From positions 49,411 through 113,410 of the forward strand of contig CAJOLJ010000013.1 in NCBI GenBank assembly GCA_905235445.1: DNA of 64,000 nt. Direction: 5' to 3'. Position 1 is the stretch's first letter. The number at the start of each line of letters is the position of its first letter. A program made the position numbers and the translations under genes. This document shows, in pieces, positions 19,617 through 27,343 of this stretch. The notes beneath the pieces are model-generated. The model ran no database searches. It was not told the origin of the DNA and saw nothing but the letters and a program-made list of their open reading frames with translations. This DNA is from an uncultured Bacteroidales bacterium. GTDB lineage: Bacteria > Bacteroidota > Bacteroidia > Bacteroidales > UBA932.

Positions 19617-20513
19617 CTAGATGCGAAGGGACTCTTCTATCACCTTGCAAAGGAGGGACGTGAGAGCCCTGTTGCCGTTGTTCTCGCTGTAGAGGGCCAC
19701 TATGTCATATGAGAGGGCGGGAAGTGAAAGGGGCACCCGCCTCAGTGGCGCTCCCCCTTCCTGCACACAGAGAGGGGCCAGGTCGGGAAGAAGGGCCACG
19801 GTATCCTGGGCGCTCTGGGTGAAGCGGACAAGGGCGGGCAGGCTTTCGGAGCGAAGAGCCGTCCTGTTGAGTGCATCAACCCCGAGATGGGCTGCGAAAG
19901 GCTCCCACAGTGCAAAGCGGAAGGACGGGGGAAGGGTGGAAGGGCCCGCACCCCTTCCGGAAAGTTCCATGCCCTGGCGCCCAAGAGCGGTGAGGGTCCC
20001 CTCCGAGCAGAAGGCCCCCATCTCGAATCCCCCCAGCACCGTTCCCTCCATGCCCAGTCCAAGCTGTCCAGTCCCCTCCCTGCAATAAAGGCAGAAGCCT
20101 TCCTGGGTGGTCGGGAGGTCGGATGCGGTCTCCATTAGGGTAAAGCGAACGGCCGGCCTTGTGGAATGGATGGTGGAGAGGGCACGGGGAAGGACACACT
20201 CAAGGCAGAGGGCATCGGCGAGGATCACGTAGGGTGAAAGCAGCGTCCCGGAAGGGTCCTCCTTGAAGATTTCCCGCACCATGTCCTCGAGGGAGGTCAT
20301 CCTGGTGGCATACTCCATGAACACTTTCCCGGCCCCCGTAAGGGACACTCCCTGCTGGGTACGGTTGAAAAGCTTCACCCCCAGGTCATTTTCAAGGGTC
20401 AGGATATGATGGCTCACGGTGGACTGGGTAAGGGACAGGGAAAGGGCGGCCCGGGAAATGTTCCCGTACCTGGCAACTTCCATAAAAGCCTTTACCCTGG
20501 AATCCTCGAGCAT
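19617..20513 (-). CDS. LysR-family transcriptional regulator
   Basis: FMEVARYGNISRAALSLSLTQSTVSHHILTLENDLGVKLFNRTQQGVSLTGAG. Confidence 0.9.
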   Translation of the reverse strand: MLEDSRVKAFMEVARYGNISRAALSLSLTQSTVSHHILTLENDLGVKLFNRTQQGVSLTGAGKVFMEYATRMTSLEDMVREIFKEDPSGTLLSPYVILADALCLECVLPRALSTIHSTRPAVRFTLMETASDLPTTQEGFCLYCREGTGQLGLGMEGTVLGGFEMGAFCSEGTLTALGRQGMELSGRGAGPSTLPPSFRFALWEPFAAHLGVDALNRTALRSESLPALVRFTQSAQDTVALLPDLAPLCVQEGGAPLRRVPLSLPALSYDIVALYSENNGNRALTSLLCKVIEESLRI

Positions 20514-20653
20514 AGTGTGGGCGTGCAGAGAGCCCCAGCGCTTCTGCACAAGTGCAAAGTTACGGATTAATGCACATAAATGTGCAATGGTCCTGCACTT
20601 TTTGAGGATGTCAATACGACCTTATAAGTTACCCCAAAATGGCGTCACATCCG

Positions 20654-22519
20654 CTACCACTCCTCATCATCCGAGAGGACCGACGATGCCCTGTCCTCGA
20701 TTACGGTGGCATTCTTCCTGAAAAGACGGAAGGCCTCCATCCCTTCCCGGACCCTGTCATCCGAGGAAGCGCACTCACTGTCCAAGTCGAATAGCTTGGC
20801 ATTGGAAAGGACCCAGCATTTGATGCGGGCACGGGTGATTGCCACGTTCAGGCGGTTGGGACTGTAGACGAAGTCAAGGTGGGAGGACGTATCCTCGGGG
20901 TTCGAGATGGCGTAGGACAGGACCACGTAGTCCCTCTCCTGGCCCTGCATCCTCTCTATGGTATCGACGAATACGGAGTCTATCTCGTCCTCCGCAATGA
21001 CATTCCCGAGGACGAGCTGCCGCTTGATTTCCCGGACCTGGGCCCTGAACGGGGTGATTAGGGCGATTTCGCCAAGGGGCACACCGCTGCCCAGGAGCGT
21101 CGACACTATCTGCGCTGTCACCTTGGCCTCGAAGGGGGAGCGGCTCATGGCGTCGAAGACATGGTGAAGGAACAGGACCTCGTTGGTCGGGGAAGTGACA
21201 AGGTATGAGTACTCCGCCACTTCCTCAAATGAAGTGAAGCACTTATTGTCGGCGGGAAGTGCGGAGCGCAGCCTGGACCCGTATGAGAGGAGGGTGGGGA
21301 TGCGAACAAGCGAGGGGGAAAGCCTGTAGCTTAGGTCCAGCATCGTGCAGTTGTCGGGATACAAGTCCACGAGATGCTTGAAAATGCTCTTCTCGAAAAG
21401 GAAGTTCCCGCTCCCATGGGGCATGATGGGGTCAAGCTGCTTGTGGTCCCCCACCAGAATGACCCTGTCACTTACCGTAAGCGGGGGAAGTGAGAGCGGG
21501 ATGCTGAGTTGGGAGGCCTCGTCAATGATGGCCACGTCGAAGGTCCAGCCTTCCATTCTCTTGGTAGAGGGATAACATACCCCGTAGGGCGTCGCCCCTA
21601 CCGCTATCCCCTCGTGGGAGAGGCTCCTGTTTATGGCGTAACTGCCATGGGGGAACTTTACCTTGCGGACTATGGGCGCATCCTCGGGGATCTCCGCCCC
21701 CTGGTATTTGTCCCCGACCTTCACGATTTTCCCCTCGGGGTCGGGCAGGACCCTGGCAATGGCAAGGAGGCAGTTGTTTATGGCGGTATGGGTGGGACCG
21801 GTTATCAGTACGTTCTTCCCTTCTTCGAGCAGGCGCTTGACAATGAGGGCGATGGTGTAGGTCTTCCCGGTTCCGGGAGGACCCTGGATGAGGTGGAAAT
21901 GCCTACATCCGAGGCTCCGTCCTACGGCCTCGTCCTGGGAGGGATTCCCGCTAGGGGGCAGGGGAACTCTCCTCCCTTCCTCGGAAAGGGTCCCGCCGAG
22001 CAACTCTTCCATGAGAAGACCAAGGTAGCTCTCATGCTCGAGGCGGGAGGCCGCGGTCATAAGCATGCCCGCGGTTACCTGCGTGTTGGTTTCATTTATC
22101 TCCCAGCCGTCCCGGGGATAGTCCAGGGGGCTGATATGGCAATTTTTCAGATCGAAATCATCGGGAACGAGGGTCATCGTATCGATGCGGTCCTCCGATA
22201 TCACCATGGTAAATTTACAGCCCCGGTTGGATAGCAGGACCTTGGACCCGGCCCTCAGCTTGGAAATGTTGCCGGGGCATTTGACAAGGGCCCTGGAAAT
22301 GTACTTCTCATCCCGGTACTCCCTGCAGTACTGATTGGGGGGATAGGCATAGAAAGAGAACCTCAGGGACACATTCGCAATGGTGTGGCCCCGGTCGATC
22401 CTGTCACGAAGCGGGGATCCCATCATCTCATTGAATTCCCCTTCCTGGAGCCTCCGCTGGAGGTCTATGGCTTCCTTGAGGGCCTGGCTCAGGGATAAGT
22501 GGCTGTCTGAAAAAGGCAT
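20654..22519 (-). CDS. Superfamily 1B (Upf1/Dna2-like) helicase
   Basis: GPPGTGKTYTIALI (Walker A), VAIIDEASQ (motif II), LVGDHKQLDPIMP (III), MQGQERDYVVLSY, RLNVAITRARIKCWV (VI). Confidence 0.9.
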   Translation of the reverse strand: MPFSDSHLSLSQALKEAIDLQRRLQEGEFNEMMGSPLRDRIDRGHTIANVSLRFSFYAYPPNQYCREYRDEKYISRALVKCPGNISKLRAGSKVLLSNRGCKFTMVISEDRIDTMTLVPDDFDLKNCHISPLDYPRDGWEINETNTQVTAGMLMTAASRLEHESYLGLLMEELLGGTLSEEGRRVPLPPSGNPSQDEAVGRSLGCRHFHLIQGPPGTGKTYTIALIVKRLLEEGKNVLITGPTHTAINNCLLAIARVLPDPEGKIVKVGDKYQGAEIPEDAPIVRKVKFPHGSYAINRSLSHEGIAVGATPYGVCYPSTKRMEGWTFDVAIIDEASQLSIPLSLPPLTVSDRVILVGDHKQLDPIMPHGSGNFLFEKSIFKHLVDLYPDNCTMLDLSYRLSPSLVRIPTLLSYGSRLRSALPADNKCFTSFEEVAEYSYLVTSPTNEVLFLHHVFDAMSRSPFEAKVTAQIVSTLLGSGVPLGEIALITPFRAQVREIKRQLVLGNVIAEDEIDSVFVDTIERMQGQERDYVVLSYAISNPEDTSSHLDFVYSPNRLNVAITRARIKCWVLSNAKLFDLDSECASSDDRVREGMEAFRLFRKNATVIEDRASSVLSDDEEW

Positions 22520-22549
22520 GGCGCTATTGCATGTTGGTTAGTGAAATTG

Positions 22550-24211
22550 TCAGCATCTTGATTCCCAGGCTTCGATTATGTCCATCACTTCCCTGAGGCG
22601 ATAGTCCTGAAGACGGATGGAATAGGGCCTGTCGTAGGAAGGATGGAGCACAGCGAGAATCATTGAGGATATCTTTATGGAGTAGCACTTTTCCAGGATG
22701 TACCTGTAGAAGCTCTGCTGCAGTTCGTAATGGTAGTAGCTGGAGTTGTCAAGGTGCGAGAGGGGGCCGAGACCAGACCCGAAACCGTATTTCTTGGGAT
22801 AGCCGTCCACGATAAGGTGCGAACTTCTCTTCCAGTCCACCATGACATACTGTCCGTCGGGACGCCGGAAAAGGGCGTCCACGGTTCCTGCGATATCCGA
22901 CTCGGGAAGTTGGATGGGATACTCGGCGCTGTCGAAAAGCAGTTCCCTCTTCTTGATGCTGTCCTCGTAGAACTTCAGGAAATGCCCCATTTCCCTGGAG
23001 GAAGTGTCGCAGGGAAGTCCCTTGAGGAACAGCTCTATCTGACGGTGCATGTATGTTCCCTGGGCCGAGAAGAGGGCCAGCGTCTCACGGGCCTGCTCCT
23101 CCGTCATGGTGCCCTCCCCCACCTTGTGCCTTATGTAGGCCTCCTCGTCAAAGGGAGGGAAGAACTTGGAAATGAGGGTGGTCACCGATATCATGTGGGC
23201 GGACGGCCCTGCACCGGGAAGGGAGGAACGGTAGGTATGGCTGACCTCATCGAAGAGGAGGGTCGACTCTATCCTCCCGCTGAGGGGGTCGCCCACCGAT
23301 GCGGGAGCGGGATACTGGACGGGAGGGGCCTGGTAGATTTCCTGCGGCGGGAGATTCCGTTCCACGAGAGGTGCTCCTTCCCCCTCGCAGGGCTGATAGT
23401 CACATCCCAAGGGCGCACCGCCGGGATAGAGTTCCGCCTCCCCGTCCTTGCATATGACCCTCACGGTCCTTTGCCTTGGCGGGAAAATCTGGCAGGAAAG
23501 ATACTGCTCCCTCGCCATTCCCTTTTCCATCTCGCTAGCTGTGAAGGTATTCCATTTTGGGGCGGATGGAAGGAGCCCTATGGCGGAAAGAAGATTCTTC
23601 CCGGTCCCCTGGGAACCTCCACCCAGGCATAAATCCACTATCGCCTCGATTATGCTTACGCAGGAGGGGCAGTTTCGATGGACCTGGTGCTCGCTGAAGC
23701 GCACGACCACCCATCCCATCTCCCGGAAATAAGCGTCCCGAAGAGAGTCCTCATCGTCGTCCGTGCAGTGGGTGCAGATCCTGGAGATCCCGTCATAGGG
23801 GGCATCGATCTCGACATCGATATAGAGGCCTTCCTTCTCGCAGCATACCGCTGCCATGATCCCGTACGGGATGCTCCTCCCGAGAACGGGCAGGTGGCAC
23901 CCACTCCTGACAATCACCCCTTCCCTCTCCCCTTCCAGGCGGGATAGTCCCCCAAGAAGGGTGTCCCTGAGGTAGGGATAGGAGTCGCTTCTTCCTTCAC
24001 GGGGAAGAAGAAGCGGGGAGGCGCTGCAGGGAAAGAGCACGACGGGATACCTGTCCAGGGGAAGGGGAAGGTCACCCGGAGGGTTGTAGGATATCCTCGT
24101 ATGAGGTCCCTGGGAAGGGTTGGGAGAGGACACGAGGGTCCTGACCCCGGGGGACGGAGGGATACTTATATTATCCAGTGGAGAAGACAAAGGAGGGGGG
24201 CTTGGGAGCAT
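22550..24211 (-). CDS. Two-domain nuclease-like protein: N-terminal Vsr/DUF559-like region, C-terminal RecB-like PD-(D/E)XK region
   Basis: N-terminal half: YIDVEIDAPYDGI...RDAYFREMGWVVVRF with CTHC and CPSC pairs; C-terminal half: AGTVDALFRRPDGQYVMVDWKRS and QQSFYRYILEK. Confidence 0.7.
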   Translation of the reverse strand: MLPSPPPLSSPLDNISIPPSPGVRTLVSSPNPSQGPHTRISYNPPGDLPLPLDRYPVVLFPCSASPLLLPREGRSDSYPYLRDTLLGGLSRLEGEREGVIVRSGCHLPVLGRSIPYGIMAAVCCEKEGLYIDVEIDAPYDGISRICTHCTDDDEDSLRDAYFREMGWVVVRFSEHQVHRNCPSCVSIIEAIVDLCLGGGSQGTGKNLLSAIGLLPSAPKWNTFTASEMEKGMAREQYLSCQIFPPRQRTVRVICKDGEAELYPGGAPLGCDYQPCEGEGAPLVERNLPPQEIYQAPPVQYPAPASVGDPLSGRIESTLLFDEVSHTYRSSLPGAGPSAHMISVTTLISKFFPPFDEEAYIRHKVGEGTMTEEQARETLALFSAQGTYMHRQIELFLKGLPCDTSSREMGHFLKFYEDSIKKRELLFDSAEYPIQLPESDIAGTVDALFRRPDGQYVMVDWKRSSHLIVDGYPKKYGFGSGLGPLSHLDNSSYYHYELQQSFYRYILEKCYSIKISSMILAVLHPSYDRPYSIRLQDYRLREVMDIIEAWESRC

Positions 24212-24517
24212 ATCTGGGGGTGAGGGCGTGCGTGAGTGTCTACCGGTTTAGTGTGGAGGGGTGCAAAGCGGGACACACCCCAGCCGATACAAATATACGA
24301 ATTCCTCCCAAAAGGGGAAAATTCTCCTGGGGCGGTGTGAAGGCAAGGGCGCAAAAGAGAGGTCCCCCTTGAAAGTATGCACACGTTTTGCTAGATTTGC
24401 GAGACTTTTGCGGGAATTGTCATCAAGCTTGTGCGCCCACTTCCCCTGTGAACGTGGTCCATAGGCAAATCAATGCAAATCAATAAACAATCAATCTATA
24501 TACACAATCAAGTCAAG

Positions 24518-27343
24518 ATGAAAAGATTCTTTCTTATCTCATTTTTGCTCTGTCTGGGCTTCGGCCTTGGATTTTCCCAGGCACCCGGACAGTATCCTCC
24601 CCTGCCCCAGGACCCTTCCATAAAGAGAGGTTCCCTGCCCAATGGCCTGACCTACTACATCCGTCACAACGCCCTTCCCGAAGGCCGGGCCGAATTCTAC
24701 CTGGCGACCAACGTGGGAGCCATCCAGGAGACCCCGGAGCAGGACGGACTCGCCCACTTCCTGGAGCACATGTGCTTCAACGGGACGAAAAACTTCCCCG
24801 GCAAGAAGATACTGGACTACCTCCAGAGCATCGGAGCGTCTTTCGGACAGAATGTGAACGCTTCCACCGGCGTGGAGCAGACGGTGTACATGCTCAACAA
24901 TATCCCTCTGATTGACCGTTCAGTCATAGATACCTGCATCCTCATCATGCATGACTACTCCCATTTCGTGCTGAACGACCCTGCGGAGATCGACCTCGAG
25001 AGGGGCGTCATCATCGAGGAGAGACGCCAGAGGAGGAATGCCGCATGGAGGATGAACGAGAAGAGCCTGCCGTACTATTTCGGGGACTCGAAATACGCCA
25101 CCTGCACAGTCATAGGCACCCAGGAGAACCTCCAGACTTTCAAGCCCGAGAGCCTCACCGACTTCTACAGGACCTGGTACCATCCCGACATGCAGGCCAT
25201 CATCGTTGTGGGTGACGTGGATGTGGACTATGTCGAGGCCAAGATCGCGGAGATCTTCGCCGACATCCCCAAGGAAGAGAACCCCAAGCCCAAGGATGTC
25301 ATAACCGTCCCCGAGAACAAGGAACCCGTCGTAGGAATCGTCACCGACCCCGAGACCACCACGAGCGGCATCGAGGTCCTCTGGAAGAGTCCTGCCGTGC
25401 CCGAGGAACTCCGTTCCACCATCATGGGTCCCTTCCAGGATGCCTTGAAAAGCATCATAACCTGGATCATGGGTGAGAGGTTCGAGGATATCGCAGCCTC
25501 CCCCGAGGCCCCTTTCCTCAATGCCAGCATGTACATAGGGGACCTCTGCGAGACCATGGAAGCGGTGGATGCCAGCGTGATGTTCAAGGAAGGCGCCACG
25601 AAGGGCTTCGAGGCCCTCATGACCGAGATCGAGAGAATGAAGAGGTACGGCTTCTCCGAAGCGGAGCTCTCCAGGGCCAAGGCCGACATCCTGAGCAACT
25701 ACGAGAGCGCAGCCAAGAAGGCGGACACCCGCAAGAACGCCCAGCTCGTGAGCCCCATCCTCTCCGAGTTCTTCGACAACGAGACCTGCATGGATCCCCA
25801 GACGGAGTGGCAGCTCATTCAGCAGATTATGGGAAGCATTCCCCTCGAGGCCGTGAACGCCACCGTCGCCCAGATGATTACCGAAGAGAACATGGTCATC
25901 CTCTTCCAGGGTCCCGAGAAGGAAGGTCTCCCGAGCCCCACCGAGGCTGAGATACTTGACGTCCTCGCGAAAGTGCGCGCCACTGACATCGCCCCCCTCC
26001 AGGAACAGGAGATAGCAACCGACCTTCTGGATCCCGCCACCCTGAAGGGTTCCAAGGTGAAGAAGCAGAAAGCTGGATTCTATGGCAGCACCGAGTGGAC
26101 GCTCAAGAACGGCATGAAGGTCATCCTCCTTCCCACCGACTTCGAGAAGGACCGCATCTCCATCGAGCTGTACAAACAGGGCGGCACATCCCTTATCAGC
26201 GATGAGGACCTGAACAGCTTCGAGAGCAACATCTGGAGCTTGTTCATGCGCAACTGCGGAGTCTCGAAGTACACGTCCACCGAGGTGACCAAGATGCTCT
26301 CCGGCAAGAACGTCTCCGTATCCCCTTACTTCGGGGCCCTTCGCCACGGAATCAACGCCACCACGACGGTCAAGGACCTGGAAACCGGCCTGCAGCTGCT
26401 GTACCTGATGTTCACCGACCCCCGTTTCGATCCCAATGAGTACGAGCAGGGCATGAAGACCATAAATGCAGTGCTTCCCAACCTCGTGAACCAGCCGAAC
26501 TACATCCTCCAGAAGCAGATGTTCTCGACCGTTTACGGCGACAATCCCCGCAACGTGCTCATAAGCGAGGAGGTGGTAAACAAGGCATCCCTCGGGACCA
26601 TCGAGAAGAACTACCGCCGTCTGTTCGATTCCGCCAAGGGAGCTACCGCAGTGATAGTGGGTGACTTCAAGATCGACGAAATCCGTCCCCTCGTCCTTAA
26701 GTACCTGGGCAGCCTGCCCAAGGGAAAGAAGGCCACCAAGTGGGTTGACGACAACCTGGACATCGTTCCCGGGAACATCACCAACGACTTCAGCGTCGAC
26801 ATGCAGACCCCGATGACAACCGTGCTCGAGATCTACAAGGCCCCCGTTCCTTTCTCCGTGAAGACCGAGGTCGCCCTTGATGCGGCGCAGTACATCCTGA
26901 ATATGAGGTACGTGACCTCGCTCAGGGAGGATGAAGGCGGCACCTATGGCGCTTCCACCAACATAAGCCTCACCAATGCCCCCAAGCAGTATGCCCTCCT
27001 GCAGACCTTCTTCAACTGCAAGCCTTCCTCCACGGACCGCCTGCGCGAGCTTGCCGAGAAGGACCTCGTCGACCTCTCCGTCAACGGTCCCACCGAGGAG
27101 GAATTCGGTATGGCACTGAAGAACCTGCAGAAGACAATGCCAGAGAGAAAGATTACCAACAGCTTCTGGCTCAACGCCCTCCGTACCCAGGACCTCTGGG
27201 GTTACGACAACGTCGATGCGAGAGAGGCCGCAATCGAGGCCCTCACCGCAGACCAGATAAAGGACGCCGTGAAGCAGCTCCTGGACGGGGATAACCACAT
27301 TGAACTGGTCATGAGACCGGGAAACACCACCGAGGCTGAATAG
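24518..27343 (+). CDS. M16 (insulinase/pitrilysin) family metallopeptidase, exported
   Basis: Signal peptide MKRFFLISFLLCLGFGLGFSQ; HFLEHMCFNGT (HxxEH). Confidence 0.93.
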   Translation: MKRFFLISFLLCLGFGLGFSQAPGQYPPLPQDPSIKRGSLPNGLTYYIRHNALPEGRAEFYLATNVGAIQETPEQDGLAHFLEHMCFNGTKNFPGKKILDYLQSIGASFGQNVNASTGVEQTVYMLNNIPLIDRSVIDTCILIMHDYSHFVLNDPAEIDLERGVIIEERRQRRNAAWRMNEKSLPYYFGDSKYATCTVIGTQENLQTFKPESLTDFYRTWYHPDMQAIIVVGDVDVDYVEAKIAEIFADIPKEENPKPKDVITVPENKEPVVGIVTDPETTTSGIEVLWKSPAVPEELRSTIMGPFQDALKSIITWIMGERFEDIAASPEAPFLNASMYIGDLCETMEAVDASVMFKEGATKGFEALMTEIERMKRYGFSEAELSRAKADILSNYESAAKKADTRKNAQLVSPILSEFFDNETCMDPQTEWQLIQQIMGSIPLEAVNATVAQMITEENMVILFQGPEKEGLPSPTEAEILDVLAKVRATDIAPLQEQEIATDLLDPATLKGSKVKKQKAGFYGSTEWTLKNGMKVILLPTDFEKDRISIELYKQGGTSLISDEDLNSFESNIWSLFMRNCGVSKYTSTEVTKMLSGKNVSVSPYFGALRHGINATTTVKDLETGLQLLYLMFTDPRFDPNEYEQGMKTINAVLPNLVNQPNYILQKQMFSTVYGDNPRNVLISEEVVNKASLGTIEKNYRRLFDSAKGATAVIVGDFKIDEIRPLVLKYLGSLPKGKKATKWVDDNLDIVPGNITNDFSVDMQTPMTTVLEIYKAPVPFSVKTEVALDAAQYILNMRYVTSLREDEGGTYGASTNISLTNAPKQYALLQTFFNCKPSSTDRLRELAEKDLVDLSVNGPTEEEFGMALKNLQKTMPERKITNSFWLNALRTQDLWGYDNVDAREAAIEALTADQIKDAVKQLLDGDNHIELVMRPGNTTEAE

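Follow-up and report, generated by a model that had tools for sequence, protein, structure and literature searches.

Two adjacent genes in a 64,000-nucleotide stretch of DNA from an uncultured Bacteroidales bacterium (here called the window) encode a putative nuclease and a putative helicase, raising the questions of whether they form a single DNA-processing machine and, if so, whether that machine serves in defence or in repair. The original prediction described two minus-strand genes with a 30-nt gap, and both open reading frames have this strand and spacing. The first gene of the pair (22550 to 24211) encodes a nuclease of 553 amino acids and the second (20654 to 22519) an SF1B helicase of 621 amino acids, the nuclease gene being upstream in the transcript. 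A promoter scan at the pair gave nothing above chance. No such module is named in Pfam, NCBIfam or PADLOC, and literature searches on DUF559 and anti-phage activity, on Dna2-like bacterial modules and on PLuB gave no description of the pair. With the anti-phage models of PADLOC 2.0, the nuclease matched only Cas4, at 15.6 bits, while the helicase was matched in its motor region only, the best of these matches being MkoA of Mokosh (155 bits).

An accessory locus with an empty counterpart

The pair lies in a stretch (20550 to 24472) between a LysR gene (19617 to 20549, minus strand) and an M16 peptidase gene (24473 to 27343, plus strand). These two flanking genes adjoin directly in all five same-genus genomes examined (L193 to L197), and a search of about 36 further genomes of the genus, many of them incomplete, did not detect the pair; hence, it is accessory in this genus. 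No transposase, convincing target-site or direct repeats, or mobile-element ends were detected at the edges of the pair, and its GC content and codon usage resemble those of the flanks, indicating that the insertion is old or was derived from a similar genome. No defence genes stand next to the pair in the window, nor is there a defence island. Contig C15 of the host genome encodes an AddB-like protein and an AddA-like protein as a pair of its own, so the module comes on top of the housekeeping enzymes for end repair. This result, together with a motor of the AAA_11/AAA_12 type encoded by a separate gene, agrees with the earlier view that the pair is not a housekeeping RecBCD or AddAB enzyme.

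The helicase

The second gene had been described as a complete Upf1/Dna2-type SF1B helicase, and this assignment was confirmed. The protein contains the Pfam domains AAA_11 (3e-27) and AAA_12 (6e-31), and its motor residues in motifs I to III were invariant in 33 homologues. Motif I (Walker A) reads GPPGTGKT (residues 213 to 220; 21860 to 21883, minus strand) and motif II reads DEAS (residues 333 to 336; 21512 to 21523, minus strand). In a sequence search of the PDB, the best matches were the Dna2 entries 5eaw, 5eax and 5ean (4e-33), followed by Upf1, Sen1 and Ighmbp2. A Foldseek search with the AlphaFold model, which was built from 33 sequences and had a pLDDT of 86.2, again placed Dna2 at the top (5ean, 1e-35) with Upf1 and Ighmbp2 close behind. 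SF1B motors of this family are 5′-to-3′ translocases, and this polarity would be expected of the present protein.

The two halves of the nuclease

An AlphaFold model of the nuclease built with 48 homologues (pLDDT, 85.5; pTM, 0.85) exhibited an alpha-beta-beta-beta-alpha-beta core in both halves with high confidence, so that a PD-(D/E)XK-type fold is present in each half of 22550 to 24211. No PDB chain matched the nuclease by sequence. The C-terminal domain (residues 309 to 553; 22553 to 23287, minus strand) is of the RecB/MGME1 type, having the core fold and all of the H, D, D-x-K and QxxxY motifs (H389, E393, D445, D459-W-K461 and Q498-Q499...Y502). Residues H389, D445, D459, K461, Q498, Q499 and Y502 were identical in 59 of 59 nuclease homologues and E393 in 58 of 59. 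The phage exonuclease family phrog_298 matched residues 309 to 534 by sequence (6e-19), bearing out the RecB-like core of the original prediction, and PDDEXK_1 was matched by 17 of 48 homologues. The nearest structure to this half in Foldseek was human MGME1 (4e-7), followed by AdnA, Cas4, RecE and Dna2; phage exonucleases were also matched. None of the cysteine columns of the domain is conserved (the maximum being 31 of 59, in a column where the window has Glu), and there is no Fe-S set. MGME1 itself is described as a bidirectional, single-stranded-DNA-specific exonuclease (PMC11551736) in which a helical arch spans the strand (PMC6237815).

The N-terminal domain (residues ∼54 to 196; 23624 to 24052, minus strand) resembles Vsr/DUF559, an assignment that draws on fold, column counts and a subthreshold DUF559 match to residues 147 to 188 (20.0 bits, against a Pfam cut-off of 20.6). 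DUF559 was matched by 30 of 48 homologues, with E values of up to 0.01. In the AlphaFold model the elements follow the order H82-95/E99-136/H154-164/E168-173/H174-196, and in the alignment the relatives exhibit the pattern PYEPD...IDIEIDEPYDG...TH...RD...GWxVIRF. The EPD motif, whose acidic residue is the presumed metal ligand, reads GIM in the window nuclease (PYGIMAA), with E134, D136, R158 and D159 being kept. Among the 59 homologues, the Asp of EPD was present in 23 of 23 orphan-type relatives but in only 18 of 36 rows of the helicase clade. As this conserved Asp has been lost, the N-terminal domain of the window protein is probably a pseudo-nuclease; the loss reads as the signature of a degenerate nuclease, and the domain would be catalytically dead. 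For the second Vsr/DUF559-like nuclease region that had been predicted, the PD-(D/E)XK-type fold stands, but a working nuclease is not supported. The idea of two active nuclease domains in one protein is weakened accordingly for the window protein.

The same region contains the sequences CTHC (146 to 149) and CPSC (181 to 184), which had been proposed as pairs that could bind zinc. Cys146 and Cys181 were found in 0 of the other 58 homologues and Cys149 was variable in the helicase clade, while Cys184 was kept in 58 of 59. The zinc proposal fails because Cys146 and Cys181 occur only in the window protein; the four cysteines are not conserved as a set, and a zinc site was rejected. A linker region (residues ∼197 to 308; 23288 to 23623, minus strand) joins the two domains and consists of conserved W...EK...RE.YL helices followed by disorder (residues 267 to 307; pLDDT, <50).

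Some features of the relatives lie outside this common architecture. An N-terminal membrane helix is carried by many nuclease relatives (L068, L069, L098 to L100, L146 and most of L101 to L120), one of which (L146) also has a vWA domain; there is no membrane helix in the window nuclease. Many cyanobacterial plasmid proteins whose function is unknown (plasmid matches H3 to H21) have the DUF559-like N-terminal domain but no RecB domain.

Co-occurrence and phylogeny of the pair

When 84,980 species genomes were scanned, 146 nuclease relatives were recovered, of which the best 80 were kept together with one viral contig. These 80 loci are those that matched the window best, and the counts that follow do not, therefore, describe a random sample. 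Group A comprised 36 nucleases, including that of the window, and in 31 of the 36 the helicase gene was next to the nuclease gene on the same strand. A full-length helicase orthologue was present elsewhere in all five genomes with a non-adjacent group A nuclease: in four of them with 44 to 45% identity and E values below 1e-164, and in G001 (same contig as L097) as an unlinked gene with 41% identity (5e-147). In group B (L101 to L124 and kin) the nucleases were full length, a membrane helix being present in many, and the helicase gene was not next to them; in group C only the RecB-type domain, of about 260 amino acids, was present. At 1e-10, no helicase was matched in seven of eight genomes from groups B and C, and the remaining genome gave only a weak match. 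The two genes are, therefore, a real two-gene module, paired far above chance across Bacteroidota and beyond. Neither of the two outcomes that would have refuted the original prediction, a half of the nuclease without a PD-(D/E)XK fold or genes that do not co-occur in other genomes, was observed.

Possession of the helicase mapped as a single change on the nuclease tree, on which the branch dividing the two groups was weakly supported. Nuclease and helicase distances were correlated with an r of 0.97, a mirror-tree correlation that is partly due to shared ancestry. In a sample of 395 genomes of the phylum, the group A nuclease was found in three (G000, G350 and G389) and the helicase in those three and G438. 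The row of the window on the nuclease tree was a long branch, indicative of fast evolution. In one subclade (L087 to L096, L146 and L148) the gap between nuclease and helicase genes was −1 to +1 nt. Its members belong to a number of Bacteroidota families, to a Chlorobiaceae bin, to a Pseudomonadota bin that was possibly mis-binned and to a tailed phage; this taxonomic spread is a pattern of horizontal movement. Chlorobiota were nested among Bacteroidota on the nuclease tree. Scans of viral contigs with single proteins detected nothing, while the scan with an alignment detected the one phage. A search of phage records gave one weak helicase match (MT835580), the neighbourhood of which was without a nuclease homologue.

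A 123-amino-acid gene for a four-helix bundle resembling 23S rRNA IVP lay between nuclease and helicase in four loci from rumen species (L070, L072, L082 and L086), and a 287-amino-acid gene lay between them in L080. In a Chlorobiaceae bin (L062, 5930 to 7956), a group B nuclease gene was broken by a frameshift beside transposition genes.

Neighbourhoods of the relatives

Gene names in the neighbourhoods of the relatives, other than those from the family scans, were read from translations. In L091 (19 to 6021) the order was hsdM-hsdS-nuclease-helicase, the type I genes hsdM/hsdS ending 3 nt before the nuclease gene. A reverse transcriptase gene and a 211-amino-acid gene were directly upstream of the pair in two species (L093, 423 to 6512, and L094, 200 to 5560), possibly as a four-gene operon. 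Genes for AbiE, Fic and VapC were present around L146, and in the tailed-phage contig, which has tail and capsid-type genes, the pair began 47 nt after a gene for a YqaJ-type nuclease (L148, 9150 to 13342). Group B nucleases were found near Mrr, Eco57I, MmeI and GmrSD genes. The helicase-only copies were located in a type I restriction-modification and DarTG-like island in G438 and in a type III restriction-modification island in G024. In the latter (L032, 9165 to 14349), the partnerless helicase homologue abuts a 1,133-amino-acid SF1 helicase beside the type III restriction genes.

PADLOC family counts per 108 proteins were 369 for the paired loci, 474 for the orphan clade and 60 for arbitrary regions. 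This enrichment is suggestive rather than a formal test, as there is redundancy among the families and as defence genes (pAgo and DISARM-type) were also present in the arbitrary control regions. A defence role for the pair is plausible and is suggested by the neighbours of its relatives.

A proposed nuclease-helicase machine and its possible roles

Helicase-coupled nucleases recur in repair, as in AddAB, RecBCD and Dna2, and equally in defence against phages, as in Hachiman, AbpAB and Gabija. From the observed folds, motifs, co-occurrence, gene order and empty site, we infer that the pair probably acts as one nuclease-helicase machine, an accessory and horizontally moving DNA-degrading system most likely directed against invading DNA. 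The two proteins would form a physical complex, in which the helicase would load on single-stranded or end-containing DNA, unwind it and feed the strand to the MGME1/RecB-type domain for degradation. The Vsr/DUF559-like domain, having lost its acidic residue in the lineage of the window, would probably serve as a platform for binding DNA or the partner. The target would be phage or plasmid DNA, with the AddAB-like repair enzyme of the host working alongside. A more specific version can be put forward tentatively: that the pair is an undescribed immune system of two genes that has spread horizontally in Bacteroidota and Chlorobiota. Its Dna2-like helicase would be the sensor of DNA ends and the driver of an MGME1-type nuclease, and the degenerate Vsr domain would have a regulatory role; membrane anchoring, as in several relatives, would place the nuclease where incoming DNA arrives.

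Defence is placed first but not firmly, because the window has no defence neighbour and because, in a lineage of rumen Bacteroidales, the pair is present in a fixed core locus (GldH-nuclease-helicase-EF-P-LpxD), a setting that fits repair or domestication. The main rival is, therefore, a chromosomal repair or replication-flap enzyme without a defence role, i.e., a bacterial functional equivalent of either Dna2 or an MGME1-helicase combination. The retention of the helicase even in species where it has been relocated, the fold matches to the repair enzymes MGME1, AdnA, RecE and Dna2, and the YqaJ-type recombination nuclease beside the phage-borne pair are all consistent with such an enzyme. Against it stand the rarity of the pair, which nearly all genomes of the genus and most of the phylum lack, the empty site, the nesting of Chlorobiota among Bacteroidota and the presence of an AddAB-like pair in the genome, and we consider a pure repair role less likely. 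RNA or R-loops could be the substrate, as Upf1 and Ighmbp2 fit the helicase almost as well as Dna2, and the best PADLOC match of the helicase is to MkoA. However, a system in which a Upf1-like RNA helicase and a nuclease cut transcripts or RNA:DNA hybrids is improbable given that Dna2 ranks first in the sequence search as well as in the structure search and that the nuclease groups with DNA-specific exonucleases. That the genes are independently useful and share an operon by descent without forming a joint machine, as might be suggested by the orphan full-length nucleases (L101 to L124) and the helicases without a nuclease (G024 and G438), is very improbable in view of the five separate genomes that keep both genes unlinked, the single change on the tree and the near-zero intergenic gaps across genera.

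Comparison with known systems

Eukaryotic Dna2 combines a RecB-like nuclease and an SF1B helicase in one polypeptide, with a four-cysteine Fe-S cluster around the nuclease, and its activity is 5′-flap/RPA-dependent DNA degradation. The pair shares with Dna2 the SF1B motor, by best sequence and fold match, and the order in which nuclease precedes helicase. In contrast to Dna2, the pair is encoded by separate genes in the window and in the 31 adjacent loci, no fused ORF being found, and its nuclease lacks the Fe-S cysteines, is nearer to MGME1 and phage exonucleases and has the extra Vsr-like domain. The original prediction of a split Dna2-like module, therefore, holds for the adjacency of a Dna2-type helicase and a RecB-like nuclease; membership of the Dna2 family was rejected. 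By analogy, the module would work like a split Dna2 or AddAB without belonging to the Dna2 family. The MGME1 and phrog_298 exonucleases have the same C-terminal fold and the motifs GT..H...E, D, DxK and QxxxY, likewise with no conserved Fe-S cysteine set, but here the nuclease domain is joined to a Vsr-like domain and has a helicase partner.

The closest working analogues are Hachiman HamAB and AbpAB, each being a nuclease and a helicase encoded by two genes. In both, the helicase senses DNA damage and controls the nuclease, and AbpA has one live and one dead nuclease domain, as proposed for the window nuclease (PMC12278908, PMC10732053). Their helicases, however, are SF2 Ski2-like and their nucleases are of the DUF1837/Cap4 type, and no homology to the pair was found. 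Mokosh (MkoA/MkoC) also has a UPF1-like helicase with a nuclease but the nuclease domains listed for it are PLD-like and NERD (PMC10952713), and it consists of very long proteins, of which only the motor region matches the helicase of the pair.

The pair would add to these systems an arrangement unnamed in the family libraries searched, in which the motor is a Dna2-type SF1B helicase and the MGME1-type nuclease is a separate protein. The constant association of the two genes, the orphan nucleases and the second nuclease domains, intact in some relatives and degenerate in others, would offer a natural series for asking how nucleases come under helicase control. AddAB, RecBCD and AdnAB similarly couple a helicase to a RecB-type nuclease and process DNA ends, but their motors are UvrD-type (SF1A) and fused to the nuclease. 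A fusion of another composition was observed among the loci of the relatives: in L125 (6325 to 12561), a UvrD-like helicase, a DnaQ-like exonuclease and a RecB-type domain form one protein of 1,147 amino acids, and the gene for a second Upf1-like helicase follows 21 nt later.
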